A stretch of 55,563 nucleotides of DNA, taken from positions 1 to 55,563 of the forward strand of contig JAFGBU010000038.1 in the NCBI GenBank assembly GCA_016932995.1. The letters are read 5' to 3'. Below, piece by piece: positions 4,301-9,057 of the stretch. The DNA comes from Desulfovibrionaceae bacterium (GTDB taxonomy: Bacteria; Desulfobacterota; Desulfovibrionia; Desulfovibrionales; Desulfovibrionaceae). A program made the translations under genes and the position numbers. Within the stretch, counting starts at the first letter, position 1, and each line of letters opens with the position of its first letter. The notes beneath the pieces were generated by a model. The model did not search any database and was not told the origin of the DNA. It saw only the letters and a list, made by a program, of their open reading frames with translations.

Positions 4301-4500
4301 CTGACGCCCAAATCGCCCTTGAGCGCCACCTCGCGGCCCAAAAGACCCGACAGGGTCTCGGAGAGCTCGGACTTGAAGGCCTCGGAGTCCAGGTACAGGG
4401 ACGCGGCCGCGAGGCAGGCGCCGATGACCAGCCCCAAAGACACCAGGGCCGCCAAAAGCGTGTACAGGCGTCCGGGCCTGCGCCTTTGGGAACGGCTCAT
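1372..4500 (-). CDS. AsmA family protein
   Basis: A 1042-residue protein with one N-terminal membrane helix (about residues 12-34) and a very long periplasmic region of repeated beta-rich segments. It ends in an AsmA C-terminal-type domain (region of LNGLTADFYGGRLKADLS and the following 150 residues). AsmA/TamB/YhdP proteins are bridge-like proteins of the envelope linked to lipid transport or outer-membrane homeostasis; the exact role here is inference. The ATG at 4500 is chosen because it overlaps the stop of the DUF89 gene as ATGA (4497-4500), implying translational coupling. An in-frame start further upstream (4638) would add 46 Arg/Pro-rich residues before the membrane helix and is rejected. 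Confidence 0.85.
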   Translation of the reverse strand: MSRSQRRRPGRLYTLLAALVSLGLVIGACLAAASLYLDSEAFKSELSETLSGLLGREVALKGDLGVSVYPWLGVETGPVEIRDGRDFGLESFISARGVAAAVKLLPLVSGEVVLSTVTVKGMEVNLVRLADGRTNWGDLFSFLSPGPGQAKPVESAEALKVSVLGLKLEDASFSFRDDRLGQRYRLSGVDLSTGMFVPGEPLAFSLDFDFRTRLLKLAAGVRLQGSLETGNRAGAIDKAVLHVLLGGRFLPDSSPKAEFLANLDFDPWAQTLALSDFRMKTLGLDLSGYFKGERIFENPAAEGRLEIKPFDPRQLAGLFFKDAFKDAPKDVLRRAAFCAELSVNDKSADFKDLTLVLDDTRISGSISSKGFFRQPDYVFDLRVDQLDLDRYIPLFITPEPFVIGDFFPDLFHGLRAEGRIEVAALRLMARDLGRVGLGLVSGPDGARLSLDPVKALGGSLSAELKGLVGPAQDEARTVLLSAALKIAGAEAKALPLARDLGLSGRANLDLSLSMPGTAFRLKDPALMALARTSAVLDLALAQGAVAPAKSWPGLEFSKARLTARLKPDMGLTPGNDLAYVVALDLSCAGRAPGRSFAAELNGPALTDGDFKTLKLKAAALKASQKGGLVFKPLPDAVLSAKASLDTAARGLSLAELSLTALGLEATGGLEVERLFKDDWKVTVRLSVPGSDPKGLLSGLDLNPPKPSDPAVWGRLSGSCEATATAQGAVLSKLNLTLDQTEVQGQINVEGLERPRYVFALQAGTLDLDRYLPADKKKPEAEAKSGPRRRGPAEPLPLEALRRLNLAGSVAVKRFKYHRLTATDMRFDATAEKGRLNLNGLTADFYGGRLKADLSAKAVSTALNVLIDISGNGFSAGPFMKDLAGAEYIRGESDLWFELFSDGATDRDIVDHLDGDAGFRIRDGSYRFSKAPAQEGATDGRTGFKWAAANFKVKDGVFSNKDFKLDSTLFKSTGGGSFSLPEDSIDVTVYFDFVAAPDVPITMAGRLSDPEVRVPPGKMLTNTAKNILTLPQRSFRFLRDLLF

Positions 4501-5390
4501 GGGCTCCCGGCCGGCTGCGGCGCGCCCTGCGCGGCGGGGTCGCCGGAATAGAGGAATACGGAGCGCCCCTGGGGCTGGCCGGTCAATCCGGCGACCACCG
4601 GGCACTTGACCTTGAAGGCGAAAAACACCTCCGGCCACCTGTCGCTCAGGGCCTCGAAATTGCCCTGGCCCTTGCTGAGCACGACCCGCGCCCCGCGCAA
4701 GCGCTCGACGAACCCGGCGGAGCAGCGCTCAAGCACCGCGCCGGGCGTGTCCGCGCCCGAGGAGACCACCTCGCAGAGCCTGTCCATGCCGACCATCCTG
4801 GCGTCGGCCATGGTCGCGTCGTTGAGCACCGGCCTGCCCCGCACAGCGTAGCACACCCGGCAGCCGTGATCCATGAGCGCCTCCACGAGCAGGACGTCCA
4901 GGCCGATCTCGCCGGCGTTGTCGCCGATGATCATGACCGTCACGCCCGGGCCCAGGCGGGAGCGGAAGGACTCCAGGGTCCGGGCGTCGATGTCCCGGGA
5001 CAAGCTCCTGAGACAGGACTCCCAGTCGAACTCCGCGGCCACCCCGCAGTCGATGAAGTTGCCGATGATGGACACCTCCAGGGCCGCGGCCAGGGGGTCC
5101 CCGGCCCTGGCCACGCTCCGCCTCAGGCCGGGCAGAAGGCCCAGGACCCGCTCGTTGGCCGCGCGCTTCTCGGCCTCGAACACGTCCCCGCACCCGGTGA
5201 TCTCGGCGATGAGATTGTAAAGCTCCCCGGCCAGGGCCGGGGGAGGCTGCGAGAGGTCCAGGTCCTGGAGCCTGGAGGCCCAGGCCGAGAGGACCCGGAA
5301 ATGCGTCTCGGGGTCGTGCGGCACGGCCAGCCTGGCCCCGGCCAGGGCCTGGCGCATGAAGCAGACCACGCAGTCAAGACTGGTTTGCAT
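4497..5390 (-). CDS. DUF89 (ARMT1-like) family protein, putative damage-control phosphatase
   Basis: 297 residues. The start at 5390 gives the N-terminus MQTSLDCVVCFMRQAL, which matches the typical DUF89 opening of paired cysteines followed by RQAL; the open frame further upstream does not resemble the family. The metal-binding signature GDNAGEIGLD is at about residues 156-165 (D157, N158 and E161), and a second conserved block, SKGQGNFEAL, lies nearer the C-terminus. Characterised members are metal-dependent phosphatases acting on damaged phosphometabolites, so a house-cleaning phosphatase is a reasonable but unproven role. It overlaps the AsmA-type gene by 4 nt. It is divergent from the DUF5320-MinD operon, with a 282-nt shared upstream region. 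Confidence 0.82.
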   Translation of the reverse strand: MQTSLDCVVCFMRQALAGARLAVPHDPETHFRVLSAWASRLQDLDLSQPPPALAGELYNLIAEITGCGDVFEAEKRAANERVLGLLPGLRRSVARAGDPLAAALEVSIIGNFIDCGVAAEFDWESCLRSLSRDIDARTLESFRSRLGPGVTVMIIGDNAGEIGLDVLLVEALMDHGCRVCYAVRGRPVLNDATMADARMVGMDRLCEVVSSGADTPGAVLERCSAGFVERLRGARVVLSKGQGNFEALSDRWPEVFFAFKVKCPVVAGLTGQPQGRSVFLYSGDPAAQGAPQPAGSP

Positions 5391-5578
5391 ATCCTGGACT
5401 TCCGGTTGCAGGGCCTCGTTGTCTTGTCGCCGAAGCGGGGCGCAACAAACCTTCCGCTCTCGGCAATATGAATCCAAGGGCCTGGTTTGGCAACCTCGGC
5501 CCAGGGAAGAAAAATCGCCCTGGCCGGGCCGGACCCGGCGCATAATTAGCCGAAAAACACGCCGCTCAGGCCTGCCGT

Positions 5579-5652
5579 AAATTCAACTTCTTAAAATACA
5601 AAGACAAATTCAATGGCACATGGCTTGCTTTTAACTAATCGCCATTGAATTT
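5579..5652. repeat. Three copies of AAATTCAA flanking the sigma54 promoter; 12-bp inverted repeat
   Basis: AAATTCAA occurs at 5579-5586 and 5606-5613 in direct orientation and at 5645-5652 inverted (TTGAATTT). The latter two extend to a perfect 12-bp inverted repeat, AAATTCAATGGC (5606-5617) and GCCATTGAATTT (5641-5652), separated by 23 nt. The left arm overlaps the -24 element and the right arm falls at the predicted start of the transcript. This looks like an operator or activator site for a dedicated regulator. No regulator gene lies nearby in the window. Confidence 0.7.
5614..5629 (+). promoter_or_regulatory. sigma54 (-24/-12) promoter of the DUF5320-MinD operon
   Basis: TGGCAC (5614-5619), five bases, then TTGCT (5625-5629). 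This matches the sigma54 consensus TGGCAC-N5-TTGCW at every fixed position. Transcription should begin about 12 nt past the GC, near 5640, leaving a leader of about 33 nt that contains the AAGGAGG ribosome site of the first gene. Confidence 0.85.
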
Positions 5653-5672
5653 AAAAGCAAGGAGGCATAGAC

Positions 5673-5978
5673 ATGCCGGGATTTGACATGACCGGACCGC
5701 TGGGTCAGGGACCCATGACCGGACGGGGGGCCGGACGCTGCTCGGGCCAGGCCGGCCAGGGGCGCGGCCCTGGATTCGGACGCGGCCTTGGATTCAGGCG
5801 CGGATTTGGGCCGGGCCGCGGCCTTGGATTCGGACGCGGCCTCGGGCGGGGCGGCTTCGGCCTGCAGCAGGCCGGGGACCTTTCCGGGCCCAGCAACAAG
5901 GACCTCAGGGACAGGCTCGACTGGCTGGAGTCCGAGGCGGCCAGGATAAGGGAACAACTGAACAGCCAAAACGGCTAA
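5673..5978 (+). CDS. DUF5320 domain-containing protein
   Basis: 101 residues beginning MPGFDMTGPLGQGPMTGRG, the diagnostic opening of DUF5320 proteins. The middle (about residues 24-65) is a low-complexity run of Gly, Arg and Phe repeats. The C-terminal 30 residues (DLRDRLDWLESEAARIREQL) are a predicted short amphipathic helix or coiled coil. DUF5320 has no assigned activity but commonly sits next to MinD-like Fe-S ATPases and NifX/NifB-type proteins in anaerobes, as here. The ATG is preceded by AAGGAGG at a good distance and lies directly behind the sigma54 promoter. A strong hairpin follows the stop codon. Confidence 0.85.
   Translation: MPGFDMTGPLGQGPMTGRGAGRCSGQAGQGRGPGFGRGLGFRRGFGPGRGLGFGRGLGRGGFGLQQAGDLSGPSNKDLRDRLDWLESEAARIREQLNSQNG
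5767..5850 (+). repeat. Imperfect tandem repeats encoding the Gly/Arg/Phe tract
   Basis: Units built on GGATTCGGACGCGGCCTTGG recur around 5772-5790, 5790-5808 and 5825-5843 inside the DUF5320 gene. They encode alternating Gly-Phe-Gly-Arg-Gly-Leu motifs. The DNA-level similarity suggests recent tandem duplication. Confidence 0.6.
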
Positions 5979-5981
5979 CCC

Positions 5982-6018
5982 ACCCGGCCCGGGCGAGGTT
6001 CAAAGGCCCGGGCCGGGT
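5982..6018 (+). terminator. Strong hairpin between DUF5320 and the first MinD ATPase (attenuator-like)
   Basis: A perfect 13-bp stem, ACCCGGCCCGGGC (5982-5994) with GCCCGGGCCGGGT (6006-6018), and an 11-nt loop, followed by a short CTTTC. It starts 4 nt after the DUF5320 stop. The weak T-run suggests partial termination or an mRNA-stabilising element that lets the first gene be expressed above the rest. Confidence 0.55.
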
Positions 6019-6047: not shown

Positions 6048-6914
6048 ATGCGCATCGCCATAGCCAGCGGCAAGGGCGGGACAGGCAAAACCACGGTGGC
6101 CGCGAACCTGGCCCGGGTGTTCAGCGACCAGGGCAAAAAGGTCTGCTTCGTGGACTGCGACGTGGAGGAGCCCAACGCCCATTTCTTTCTCAAGCCCGAG
6201 CTCGGGCCCGAGCGCGAGGAGTACGTGCCCGTGCCCGAGGTGGACATGGACAAATGCCTGGGCGCCGAGTGCCGCAAGTGCATCGAGCTCTGCCGCTTCA
6301 AGTCCCTGATCTGGATGGCCGACCAGGTCATGTCCTTTCCGGAGCTCTGCCACGGCTGTGGCCTGTGCCAGCTGGCCTGCCCGGCCCGGGCCATAGGCGA
6401 GACCACCCGGCTCATCGGGACCTCGGCCAGCGGCAGGGCCGGGGACATAGACTTCCACATGGGCCTGCTGCGCATCGGCGAGGCCATGGCCCCGCCGCTC
6501 ATCAAGGCGGTCAAGGCCAGGGCCGAACGGGCGGACATCGAGATTTTGGACTGCCCGCCGGGCACCTCCTGCCCGGTGGTCGAGTCCATGCAGGACGTGG
6601 ATTACGCCCTGCTGGTGGCCGAACCCACGCCGTTCGGGCTGCACGACCTGGGCCTGGCGGTCAACCTGATGCGCAAGCTCGGCCTGCGCTTCGGCGCGGC
6701 CGTGAACCGGGCGGGCATGGGCGACGGCCGGGTCGAGGACTATCTCGAACACGAGGCCGTGCCCCTGCTGGGAAGCCTGCCCCACACCCAAGAGGCCGCG
6801 GCCGCGTACTCCAGGGGCGAGCTCCTGGTCGAGGCCCTGCCGGAGTTCAGGGGACGCTACGAATCCATGGCCCGGGCATTGCTGCAGCAGGCCGACGGGG
6901 AGGCCGAGGCATGA
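6048..6914 (+). CDS. MinD-superfamily P-loop ATPase with inserted ferredoxin domain (first of pair)
   Basis: 288 residues. The deviant Walker A motif SGKGGTGKTT is at about residues 7-16, and DCDVEEPNAH and LDCPPGTSCP correspond to the switch and Walker B regions. Between them (about residues 68-110) is a two-cluster ferredoxin insert. The second cluster is regular (CHGCGLCQLACP). The first is CLGAECRKCIELC, with four rather than two residues between the first two cysteines. Homologues in Desulfovibrio belong to the orange-protein (ORP) loci; a role in ATP-driven Fe-S or metal-cofactor handling is inferred. GGAAGG precedes the ATG. The stop overlaps the next start as ATGA, so the two ATPases are probably made in equal amounts and may form a heterodimer. 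Confidence 0.88.
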   Translation: MRIAIASGKGGTGKTTVAANLARVFSDQGKKVCFVDCDVEEPNAHFFLKPELGPEREEYVPVPEVDMDKCLGAECRKCIELCRFKSLIWMADQVMSFPELCHGCGLCQLACPARAIGETTRLIGTSASGRAGDIDFHMGLLRIGEAMAPPLIKAVKARAERADIEILDCPPGTSCPVVESMQDVDYALLVAEPTPFGLHDLGLAVNLMRKLGLRFGAAVNRAGMGDGRVEDYLEHEAVPLLGSLPHTQEAAAAYSRGELLVEALPEFRGRYESMARALLQQADGEAEA

Positions 6915-7768
6915 AACAGCTCGTGGTCGTGAGCGGCAAGGGCGGAACCGGCAAGACCAGCCTGACCGCGGCCCTGGCCGGGCTGGGCCCGAAAAAGGTC
7001 CTGGCCGACTGCGACGTGGACGCGGCCGACCTGCACCTGGTCCTGCACCCGGAGGTCCTTGAAAAGCAGGACTTCTACAGCGGCGAGCTGCCGGTCCGGG
7101 ACCCGGACCGGTGCACCTCCTGCGGCCTGTGCCTGGAGCACTGCCGGTTCGGCGCGATCAGCGAGGACTTCCGCATCCTGCCCGAGCACTGCGAGGGCTG
7201 CGCGGTCTGCGCCTTTGTCTGCCCGACCGGGGCCGTGGAAATGCGCCGGCGGCACTGCGGCTTCCAGTACCGCTCCAAGACGCGCTTCGGGACCATGATC
7301 CACGCCGAGCTGGGCACGGGCCAGGAGAACTCGGGCAAGCTGGTGACCTCGGTGCGCAACGCGGCCATGGAGCAGGCCCAGGCCGAGGGCGCGGACCTGG
7401 TGCTCGTGGACGGCTCGCCCGGGGTCGGCTGCCCGGTCATCGCCTCGCTGACCAACACCGACGCGGCCGTGTTCGTGGCCGAGCCCACGGTCTCCGCGAT
7501 CCACGACCTGAAAAGGGTCCACGCCCTGGCCAAATACTTCAAGATCCCGGGCCTGGCGATCATCAACAAGACGGGCATAAACCCCGGGCTGGAGGAGGAA
7601 ATCCGCGCCTTCTGCGCCGCGGAGGACATCCCCGTGGCCGGGGCCCTGCCCTACGACATGGCGGTGACCAAGGCCCAGATCCTCGGCCAGACCATCGTCG
7701 AGTACGACCCGAACGGCCTCGGCCGCCTGGTCCAAGACATCTGGGACACCATAGCCGCAAACCTCTAA
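6911..7768 (+). CDS. MinD-superfamily P-loop ATPase with inserted ferredoxin domain (second of pair)
   Basis: 285 residues, paralogous to the preceding gene. Walker A SGKGGTGKTS lies within the first 18 residues, and DCDVDAADLH and LVDGSPGVGCP follow the same plan. The inserted ferredoxin has two canonical cysteine sets, CTSCGLCLEHC and CEGCAVCAFVCPTG (about residues 67-103), enough for two [4Fe-4S] clusters. The ATG at 6911 overlaps the upstream TGA by 4 nt. A tandem pair of such ATPases is typical of anaerobes, next to DUF5320, NifX/ORP or CGGC genes. The substrate of the ATPase cycle is unknown. Confidence 0.88.
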   Translation: MKQLVVVSGKGGTGKTSLTAALAGLGPKKVLADCDVDAADLHLVLHPEVLEKQDFYSGELPVRDPDRCTSCGLCLEHCRFGAISEDFRILPEHCEGCAVCAFVCPTGAVEMRRRHCGFQYRSKTRFGTMIHAELGTGQENSGKLVTSVRNAAMEQAQAEGADLVLVDGSPGVGCPVIASLTNTDAAVFVAEPTVSAIHDLKRVHALAKYFKIPGLAIINKTGINPGLEEEIRAFCAAEDIPVAGALPYDMAVTKAQILGQTIVEYDPNGLGRLVQDIWDTIAANL

Positions 7769-7847: not shown

Positions 7848-8213
7848 ATGGAAAAGATCCTGATCATCGGCTGCCGGCACATTGAAAACGAGATCTGCAT
7901 CGGCTGTTCGAGGTGCATGGTGGGCTTCAACCGCAGGGAGGGCGAGTTCGCGGCCTACGGCCCGGACGCCCAGCTCATCGGCATCCTCAGCTGCGGCGGC
8001 TGCCCGGGCTCGGGCGTGGTCGTGCGCATGGCCCAAATGAAGCTCTGGAACGCGCCCATGAAGGAAATCCCGACCAAGATCCACATCGCGCCGTGCATGC
8101 TGCACAACTGTCCCAACAAGGAGACATTGGTCCCCAAGATCAAGGCCAAGGCCGGGGTGGAGGTCATCGAGGGCACCCACCCCTATCTGCCGGAAAACAT
8201 CTTCGCCCAATAG
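7848..8213 (+). CDS. CGGC domain-containing protein
   Basis: 121 residues. The family name motif appears as SCGGCPGSG near residues 46-54, and there are two further cysteine patches, CIGCSRC (about residues 17-23) and APCMLHNCP (about 83-91). The cysteine content suggests metal or Fe-S binding; family function is unassigned. The ATG at 7848 is preferred over an in-frame ATG 33 nt upstream because GAGAGGAG sits just before it and the protein then opens directly into the conserved beta strand EKILIIGC. It is 79 nt after the second ATPase and 10 nt before the FmdB-like gene, so probably cotranscribed. Confidence 0.8.
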   Translation: MEKILIIGCRHIENEICIGCSRCMVGFNRREGEFAAYGPDAQLIGILSCGGCPGSGVVVRMAQMKLWNAPMKEIPTKIHIAPCMLHNCPNKETLVPKIKAKAGVEVIEGTHPYLPENIFAQ

Positions 8214-8223
8214 GAGGGGCTAA

Positions 8224-8466
8224 ATGCCCATCTACGAGTACCAGTGCCCGGACTGCGGCAGGACCTTCGAGGAGATCGTCCTCCGCAACGAGGCCCCAAA
8301 GTGTCCGGATTGCGGCGGGACCAGGCCGGCCAGGGTGCTCTCCGCGAGCTCCAGCCTGAGCGGCAGGGAGCGCGCCCAGACGCCCGGGGCCACGGGCCAC
8401 GGCTGCTGCGGGCAGAGGCCGAGCGACCGGGGCTGCGTGCCGGGCACCTGCTGCGGCAAGGCGTAA
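8224..8466 (+). CDS. FmdB-family zinc ribbon protein
   Basis: 80 residues opening MPIYEYQCPDCGRTFE, the classic FmdB/CxxC_CxxC_SSSS N-terminus, with the second knuckle CPDCGG about 20 residues on and a Ser-rich stretch after it. Members are small putative regulatory or metal-binding proteins. Unusually, the C-terminal tail carries five more cysteines (HGCCGQ and GTCCGKA among them), which could bind additional metal. GAGGGG precedes the ATG, 10 nt after the CGGC gene. Confidence 0.8.
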   Translation: MPIYEYQCPDCGRTFEEIVLRNEAPKCPDCGGTRPARVLSASSSLSGRERAQTPGATGHGCCGQRPSDRGCVPGTCCGKA

Positions 8467-8505: not shown

Positions 8506-8613
8506 TGTTGCGCCCTCTGCCCGGCCCTGGCCAAGGCCCGGGTTTTAGGATATAGACGTCGTCCTGACGCGTTGTTTAGGTCGCTATTGAAAACTCGAAC
8601 AGCGGGGAAAGGC

Positions 8614-9057
8614 ATGAAGTCAAACCTTGGCCGCGCCCTTGACCAGCTCCAGCGCCAGGTCGAGGCGGAGAGCCTGGAAAAATACGGCCGCCGCGTGATT
8701 GAACGCTGGGAAAACCCGCCCCACAAGGGCATGATCGACAACCCCTCCTGCCGGGGCAAAAAGACCGGCTCCTGCGGGGACTCCATGGAGATATTCCTGC
8801 GCATCCAGGACGGCAGGATCATGGCCGCCGGATTCGTGGCCGACGGCTGCGGCTCCAGCCAGGTCGCGGCCTCGGCCTGCTGCGAGCTGTCCATGGGCCG
8901 GACCCTGGAGGACGCCATGTCCATAGACAAGAACGCGGTGCTCGAGCTCCTGGGCGGCCTGCCCGACGACGACGCGCACTGCGCCCACCTGGCGGCAAAG
9001 ACCCTTGAGGACGCGATCCACGACTGGATGACCAGATTTCGGGACCAGGCCGGCTAG
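8614..9057 (+). CDS. IscU/NifU N-terminal-like iron-sulfur cluster assembly scaffold
   Basis: 147 residues with the three cluster-ligand regions of IscU/NifU-N proteins: GSCGDSMEIF (CGD motif), ADGCGSSQVAAS (GCGS motif) and AHCAHLAAKTLEDAI near the C-terminus. Extra cysteines (NPSC before the first motif and a CC pair after the second) distinguish it from housekeeping IscU. The ATG at 8614 is preferred over an upstream in-frame start because GGGGAAAGG lies just before it. Placed after two Fe-S ATPases, it suggests cluster building for that module, although a 147-nt gap with a hairpin separates it from the FmdB-like gene. Confidence 0.82.
   Translation: MKSNLGRALDQLQRQVEAESLEKYGRRVIERWENPPHKGMIDNPSCRGKKTGSCGDSMEIFLRIQDGRIMAAGFVADGCGSSQVAASACCELSMGRTLEDAMSIDKNAVLELLGGLPDDDAHCAHLAAKTLEDAIHDWMTRFRDQAG

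Follow-up and report, generated by a model that had tools for sequence, protein, structure and literature searches.

The window analysed here, a stretch of 55,563 nucleotides, is the whole of contig C45 in a 2.48-Mb genome of a Desulfovibrionaceae bacterium assembled in 49 contigs. A sigma54 promoter in it precedes a predicted operon of ORP-type iron-sulfur genes, among them two for MinD/ParA-type ATPases, and is flanked on the other side by a divergent gene for an ARMT1-like phosphatase domain (Table 1). Further downstream lie CGGC, zinc ribbon and NifU-like genes, and the zinc ribbon protein is one that we take to be FmdB-type. The two ATPases carry ferredoxin motifs and are Orp3/Orp4-like by description, in agreement with the assignment of the genes to the ORP set in the earlier note on this DNA; Orp3 and Orp4 are described as paired ferredoxin-motif ATPases in PMC6345978. 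Among 29 relative loci of up to 3.9 kb around the first MinD gene (MinD1), the second (MinD2) follows it in all 29, an ARMT1-like gene is divergent in 14 and a CGGC gene is present in 10. A perfect 13-bp G+C-rich hairpin lies at 5982-6018, between the DUF5320 and first MinD genes, and in the corresponding spot three relatives (L011, L015 and L017) have, by eye, a hairpin with a T run behind it, which suggests partial termination after DUF5320.

Table 1. Positions of genes and sequence elements around the sigma54 promoter, in window coordinates.
Feature	Position	Strand	Remark
ARMT1-like phosphatase-domain gene (PF01937), divergent	4497-5390	-	start 5390 taken from relatives' starts
Palindrome GGCGCATAATTAGCC, predicted site of GAFTDA activator	5537-5551	.	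78 nt upstream of -24 GG
First AAATTCAA copy	5579-5586	+	overlaps IHF-like element
IHF-like site TTTTAAGAAGTTG	5584-5596	-	2 mismatches to WATCARNNNNTTR; -31 from -24 GG, spot favoured in relatives
Left arm of 12-bp inverted repeat, AAATTCAATGGC	5606-5617	+	
sigma54 promoter TGGCACATGGCTTGCT	5614-5629	+	-24 GG 5615-5616, -12 GC 5627-5628
Left arm of interlocking 11-bp inverted repeat, CTTGCTTTTAA	5624-5634	+	overlaps -12 element
Right arm of 12-bp inverted repeat, GCCATTGAATTT	5641-5652	+	just past predicted start
Right arm of interlocking 11-bp inverted repeat, TTAAAAGCAAG	5651-5661	+	reaches Shine-Dalgarno-like AAGGAGG
DUF5320 protein (PF17253)	5673-5978	+	first gene of predicted operon
MinD/ParA-type ATPase, first copy	6048-6914	+	ferredoxin-type motif; Orp3/Orp4-like by description
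MinD/ParA-type ATPase, second copy	6911-7768	+	two Fer4 stretches; Orp3/Orp4-like by description
CGGC-domain protein (PF08821)	7848-8213	+	
Zinc ribbon protein (PF09723)	8224-8466	+	
NifU N-terminal-domain protein (PF01592)	8572-9057	+	

The promoter, reported earlier with the same letters and coordinates, is the sole exact match to the sigma54 pattern in the window, where five matches with at most one mismatch compare with 1.74 expected. Genome-wide the strict form GGCACN5TTGCW occurs at 17 sites, compared with one for the reversed control, which indicates that most of them are genuine. The usual spacing puts the predicted transcription start near 5640, and a Shine-Dalgarno-like AAGGAGG follows at 5659-5665. 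Between 5391 and 5645 there is only one sigma70-like pair scoring 8/12, near 5487. At 31 loci the ARMT1-like gene was searched for a divergent sigma54 promoter of its own, with strict GGCAC and up to 350 nt upstream, and none was found.

The upstream palindrome and the IHF-like element

The earlier note suggested that a repeat covering the promoter takes the place of the usual upstream activator site. This is wrong, since a conserved palindrome which that note had overlooked, GGCGCATAATTAGCC, has its centre some 96 nt upstream of the predicted start. A near copy with one mismatch, GGCGAATAATTAGCC, the only one in the genome, lies on contig C48 (C48:2066-2080, locus L099), where the sigma54 site of the ORP operon follows 114 nt further on. 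Two mismatches occur nowhere in the genome; with up to three allowed, the count is 15 places as against 23 for the backwards pattern, which leaves the exact and one-mismatch places as the only informative ones. The pattern GGCNNAWWWTNNGCC occurs at eight places (16 rows, as it is self-complementary), with one per strand for its reversed control, and of the eight only those in the window and on C48 are followed by a sigma54 site within 160 nt. The exact 15-mer GGCGCATAATTAGCC is also found, on either strand, at three relatives' MinD promoters and two activator loci.

Among the 16 other GGCACN5TTGCW sites of the genome a matching palindrome with at least five A/T inside was seen, by eye, only at an ORP-like gene on C44. 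This third ORP-like gene (L100 6469-7026, minus strand) is preceded by GGCGTTTTTTTCGCC and, 81 nt further on, a strict sigma54 site; it lies about 750 nt from another sigma54 activator gene, which is response regulator-like. A fourth ORP-like gene, encoding a Nitro_FeMo-Co-domain protein on C13, has GGCTCAAAACTAGCC upstream (L102 2214-2228), but the pattern used finds no sigma54 site there. Four other sigma54 sites (L128, L131, L134 and L135) have a wider palindrome-like TGCGCAA string 68-81 nt upstream, and a similar string stands at 146 at the L136 site. By eye these strings have a GCGCA core in common with the GGCGCATAATTAGCC-type sites and differ in dyad spacing. They may belong to another activator; those at the four sites would imply either a second activator with similar sites or an activator less selective than assumed.

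Comparison with relatives covered 43 MinD1 loci including the window, 31 of which have a good sigma54 site (score of at least 10, at most 650 nt from the gene); the other 12 were dropped for want of one and their genomes left outside the activator search, and loci L146-L154 stand outside every count. An AT-rich palindrome of the form G[GA]C-N9-G[CT]C is present 66-113 nt upstream (115 nt tested) at 30 of the 31 promoters, 29 of 30 in relatives, compared with 1.1 in shuffled sequence, a figure that is partly circular because the palindrome was read by eye off aligned relatives, hence from some of the same promoters, and later relaxed. The strict form GGC-N9-GCC accounts for 20 of the 31. A cleaner test is provided by ten good promoters that were added once the motif had been defined, since the motif came from some of the others: all ten carry the relaxed form and five the strict one. 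All these counts ignore kinship and are not independent, as the relatives cluster in few genera. One relative with a good sigma54 site, L036, has only a GC-richer palindrome. The spacings of 39 sites, including those on C48 and C44, fall into groups of 66-69, 78-81, 99-101 and 110-114 nt. Palindromes for DVU2106, the Desulfovibrio activator of this type, are reportedly printed in a 2011 paper.

Between palindrome and promoter lies an IHF-like element, which overlaps the first AAATTCAA copy at a position conserved in relatives and is itself overlapped by a plus-strand match with one mismatch at 5581-5593. IHF-like 13-mers with up to two mismatches on the minus strand give 22 matches at -32 to -30 across the 31 promoters, against about 1.5 by shuffling. 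Counting mismatches alone, such sites do not stand out from shuffled sequence (mean shuffle fraction 0.47), so that the case for the element, which in the window has two mismatches, rests on its position.

The activator gene and the ORP regulon

The genome encodes, as had been proposed, a DVU2106-like sigma54 activator with PAS and Sigma54_activat domains and a GAFTDA motif. Its gene, at 683-2074 of C48 (match 740-2071), precedes the ORP operon, in which ORP and MrpORP genes follow, and its stop codon is overlapped by the GGCGAATAATTAGCC palindrome. The contig of the window has none of the genome's 19 PF00158 matches, which bears out the earlier statement that no regulator lies there. A second sigma54 activator (G000:C38:42998-44281) is 49% identical to the ORP activator.

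Activators were searched for in 42 genomes, namely the 31 with good promoters and 11 chosen by hand whose best MinD1 match is weaker than 1e-7. An orthologue (E <= 1e-130) is present in 31/31 of the former versus 2/11 of the latter. The activator locus was recovered for 30 of the 31 genomes, and in all 30 the protein has GAFTDA and a palindrome lies in the 480 nt around or after the gene end; in 28 of them (within L204-L233) the palindrome starts no more than 15 nt from the end of the aligned protein. A sigma54 site by the pattern used lies 55-140 nt past a palindrome in 18 of the 30; the figures for these loci are raw counts. The end of the activator coding sequence thus appears to serve also as enhancer for the operon that follows. 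Activator and MinD genes adjoin in four (L108, L112, L113 and L114) of the 16 wide loci from relatives (L103-L118), and are neighbours by coordinates also in genomes G027, G059, G087 and G040.

Judging from these sequence comparisons, we put at roughly 0.85 the probability that this is an ordinary activator-dependent sigma54 promoter, a further member of the known ORP regulon. This reading is supported by a sigma54 promoter before ORP-complex genes, matched to Orp3/Orp4 by description, by a GAFTDA activator next to the ORP genes on C48, and by a palindrome common with the ORP operon, the two copies being one base apart. GAFTDA is listed for DVU2106, with the orp operons as its targets, in PMC4641369. 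The PAS/AAA+ activator from C48 would bind the palindrome at 5537-5551, while IHF or a similar bending protein would bind near 5581-5596 and loop the DNA, allowing the activator to open sigma54-RNA polymerase at 5614-5629. The transcript, predicted to begin at about 5640, would include DUF5320 and the two MinD-type ATPases, and the operon probably extends to the CGGC, zinc-ribbon and NifU-like genes. A separate gene set of the MinD/CGGC/zinc-ribbon/NifU type would in this way be tied to the ORP activator via a common, testable DNA site.

Repeats lying on the promoter

An eye-catching feature of the promoter is a perfect inverted repeat of 12 bp (loop of 23 nt) that flanks the sigma54 site, accompanied by three copies of AAATTCAA (5579 and 5606 on the plus strand, 5645-5652 on the minus strand). 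Both had been pointed out earlier and are real; a second perfect inverted repeat of 11 bp, which interlocks with the first, had gone unnoticed. Taken together, the right arms of the two repeats form a 21-nt block (5641-5661) complementary to sequence on the flanks of both the -24 and the -12 element. Three copies of AAATTCAA were reached in one of 100 shuffles of the whole window. Among 2000 dinucleotide shuffles of 5556-5672, an inverted repeat of at least 12 bp arose in one and of at least 10 bp in 12, whereas neither two repeats of at least 10 bp nor three AAATTCAA copies arose in any; with 5520-5690 the counts are 0 for at least 12 bp, 17 for at least 10 bp and 0 for two repeats. The shuffles address this single stretch, which was chosen for being striking, so it is less exceptional genome-wide than they imply. 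Among the 17 strict sigma54 sites of the genome only that of the window has an interlocking repeat pair; elsewhere there are hairpins at L142 (11 bp, G+C-rich, immediately upstream of the promoter) and at L132 (8 bp, downstream).

Genome-wide there are 34 copies of AAATTCAA and eight of the backwards pattern, so AAATTCAA is not rare by this control. Many copies overlap a stop-to-stop frame of at least 100 codons, which is weak evidence for coding in a G+C-rich genome. A search for further pairs near sigma54 sites, as suggested earlier, gave two, neither near such a site: one on C28, 55 bp apart and inside an open frame, and one on C3, 153 bp apart and close to the contig end. Good sigma54 sites are lacking within 250 bp of all 31 other AAATTCAA places, two of which are near a weak GGCC-type match, and AAATTCAA was rejected as a regulon motif.

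At the equivalent promoters of the relatives the AAATTCAA repeat is absent (0/30), the longest perfect repeat over the promoter being 7 bp, which makes it unlikely to be the main element of control. One relative (L185) has a lone TTGAATTT. A core pattern with 5-bp arms over a sigma54 site occurs in 33 of 288 family genomes, at 36 places including the window. It was dismissed as a sign of the repeat elsewhere in the family, since the arms end at 5-6 bp in the eight loci that were extended (27 other places were left unextended). Among the genomes compared the repeat thus appears to be known only from its host, with a function that is unproven or absent. The earlier note would have abandoned its proposal, an autorepressor or dual regulator on the repeat, if AAATTCAA occurred at random frequency and the repeat lacked conservation; the latter is the case, whereas the excess over the backwards control leaves the former unclear.

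How then are the repeats to be explained? They are probably functionless, having arisen through local mutation or by chance in A+T-rich promoter sequence. This would account for their absence at the 30 relatives' promoters and for AAATTCAATGGCAC having just one exact copy in the genome, and the arms contain letters already constrained as parts of the -24, -12 and Shine-Dalgarno elements. Against it stands the local improbability of two perfect interlocking repeats, seen in none of the 2000 shuffles, and the closest comparison is distant, as the host genus is represented by one genome and the nearest MinD2 in the 288-genome family set is 72% identical, which leaves room for recent selection. 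On a rival reading the repeat would be an operator, on which a repressor or dual regulator would occupy both arms (centre near -11) and the third copy to block sigma54 polymerase. A perfect 12-bp dyad centred on the promoter and three of the genome's 34 8-mer copies within 74 bp would suit a repressor, as would the excess over backwards controls both of AAATTCAA and of AAATTCAATGGCAC at up to three mismatches (60 places versus 15, sigma54 sites at those 60 being left out of the scan). An operator ought, however, to be conserved or to recur at sigma54 promoters, and neither the 30 relatives nor the 31 other AAATTCAA places, with their two weak matches, bear this out; moreover, the first bases of the half-sites are 39 and 27 bp apart and the arm centres 35 bp, which would correspond to non-integral helix turns. 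The autorepressor or dual regulator thus finds no support in these comparisons and we consider it unlikely.

Alternative RNA hairpins, one of them touching the Shine-Dalgarno sequence, could form in a transcript from an upstream start. The stems are perfect (alone -13.9 kcal/mol for 5606-5617/5641-5652 and -9.4 kcal/mol for 5624-5634/5651-5661) and by topology look mutually exclusive. The conserved sigma54 promoter would nevertheless start RNA near 5640 and leave the left arms outside the transcript, the single sigma70-like pair near 5487 is all that the upstream region offers, and the repeats were not found in relatives; a role in RNA is accordingly very improbable. The thought that the interlocking repeats add a second layer of control, as a lineage-only operator or DNA-structure switch over a standard activator-IHF-sigma54 promoter, is doubtful to the same degree as the operator. 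The repeat and its interlocking partner are most likely a by-product of A+T-rich promoter sequence in the host lineage, and the locus illustrates that an eye-catching promoter repeat need not be the main control site.

Comparison with known systems

With a sigma54 promoter overlaid by a repressor site the locus would have in common the dyad repeat across -24 and -12; the difference lies in its lack of conservation and of an assigned repressor. A narrow literature search, limited to partial texts, returned no direct precedent for a repressor dyad over a sigma54 promoter, and one may exist in print. The closer parallel is with orp1/orp2 of D. vulgaris Hildenborough, for which PMC3897727 gives activator sites at -131 and -88 and a need for IHF. 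As far as the cited sources describe them, the two systems have in common sigma54 promoters, a single-component GAFTDA activator, ORP, MrpORP and paired ferredoxin-motif ATPase genes, as well as far-upstream palindromes, compared in form and placing; the IHF-like element of the window falls, as the IHF sites of D. vulgaris do, between palindrome and promoter. Unlike in D. vulgaris, the MinD-type operon of the window is on another contig than the ORP and activator cluster, it is divergent to an ARMT1-like gene and continues into CGGC, zinc-ribbon and NifU-like genes, and its promoter bears the extra interlocking inverted repeats. For a regulon that these sources describe in one species, the relatives suggest a family-wide model of the site: GGC-N9-GCC at grouped spacings, with an IHF-like element near -32.
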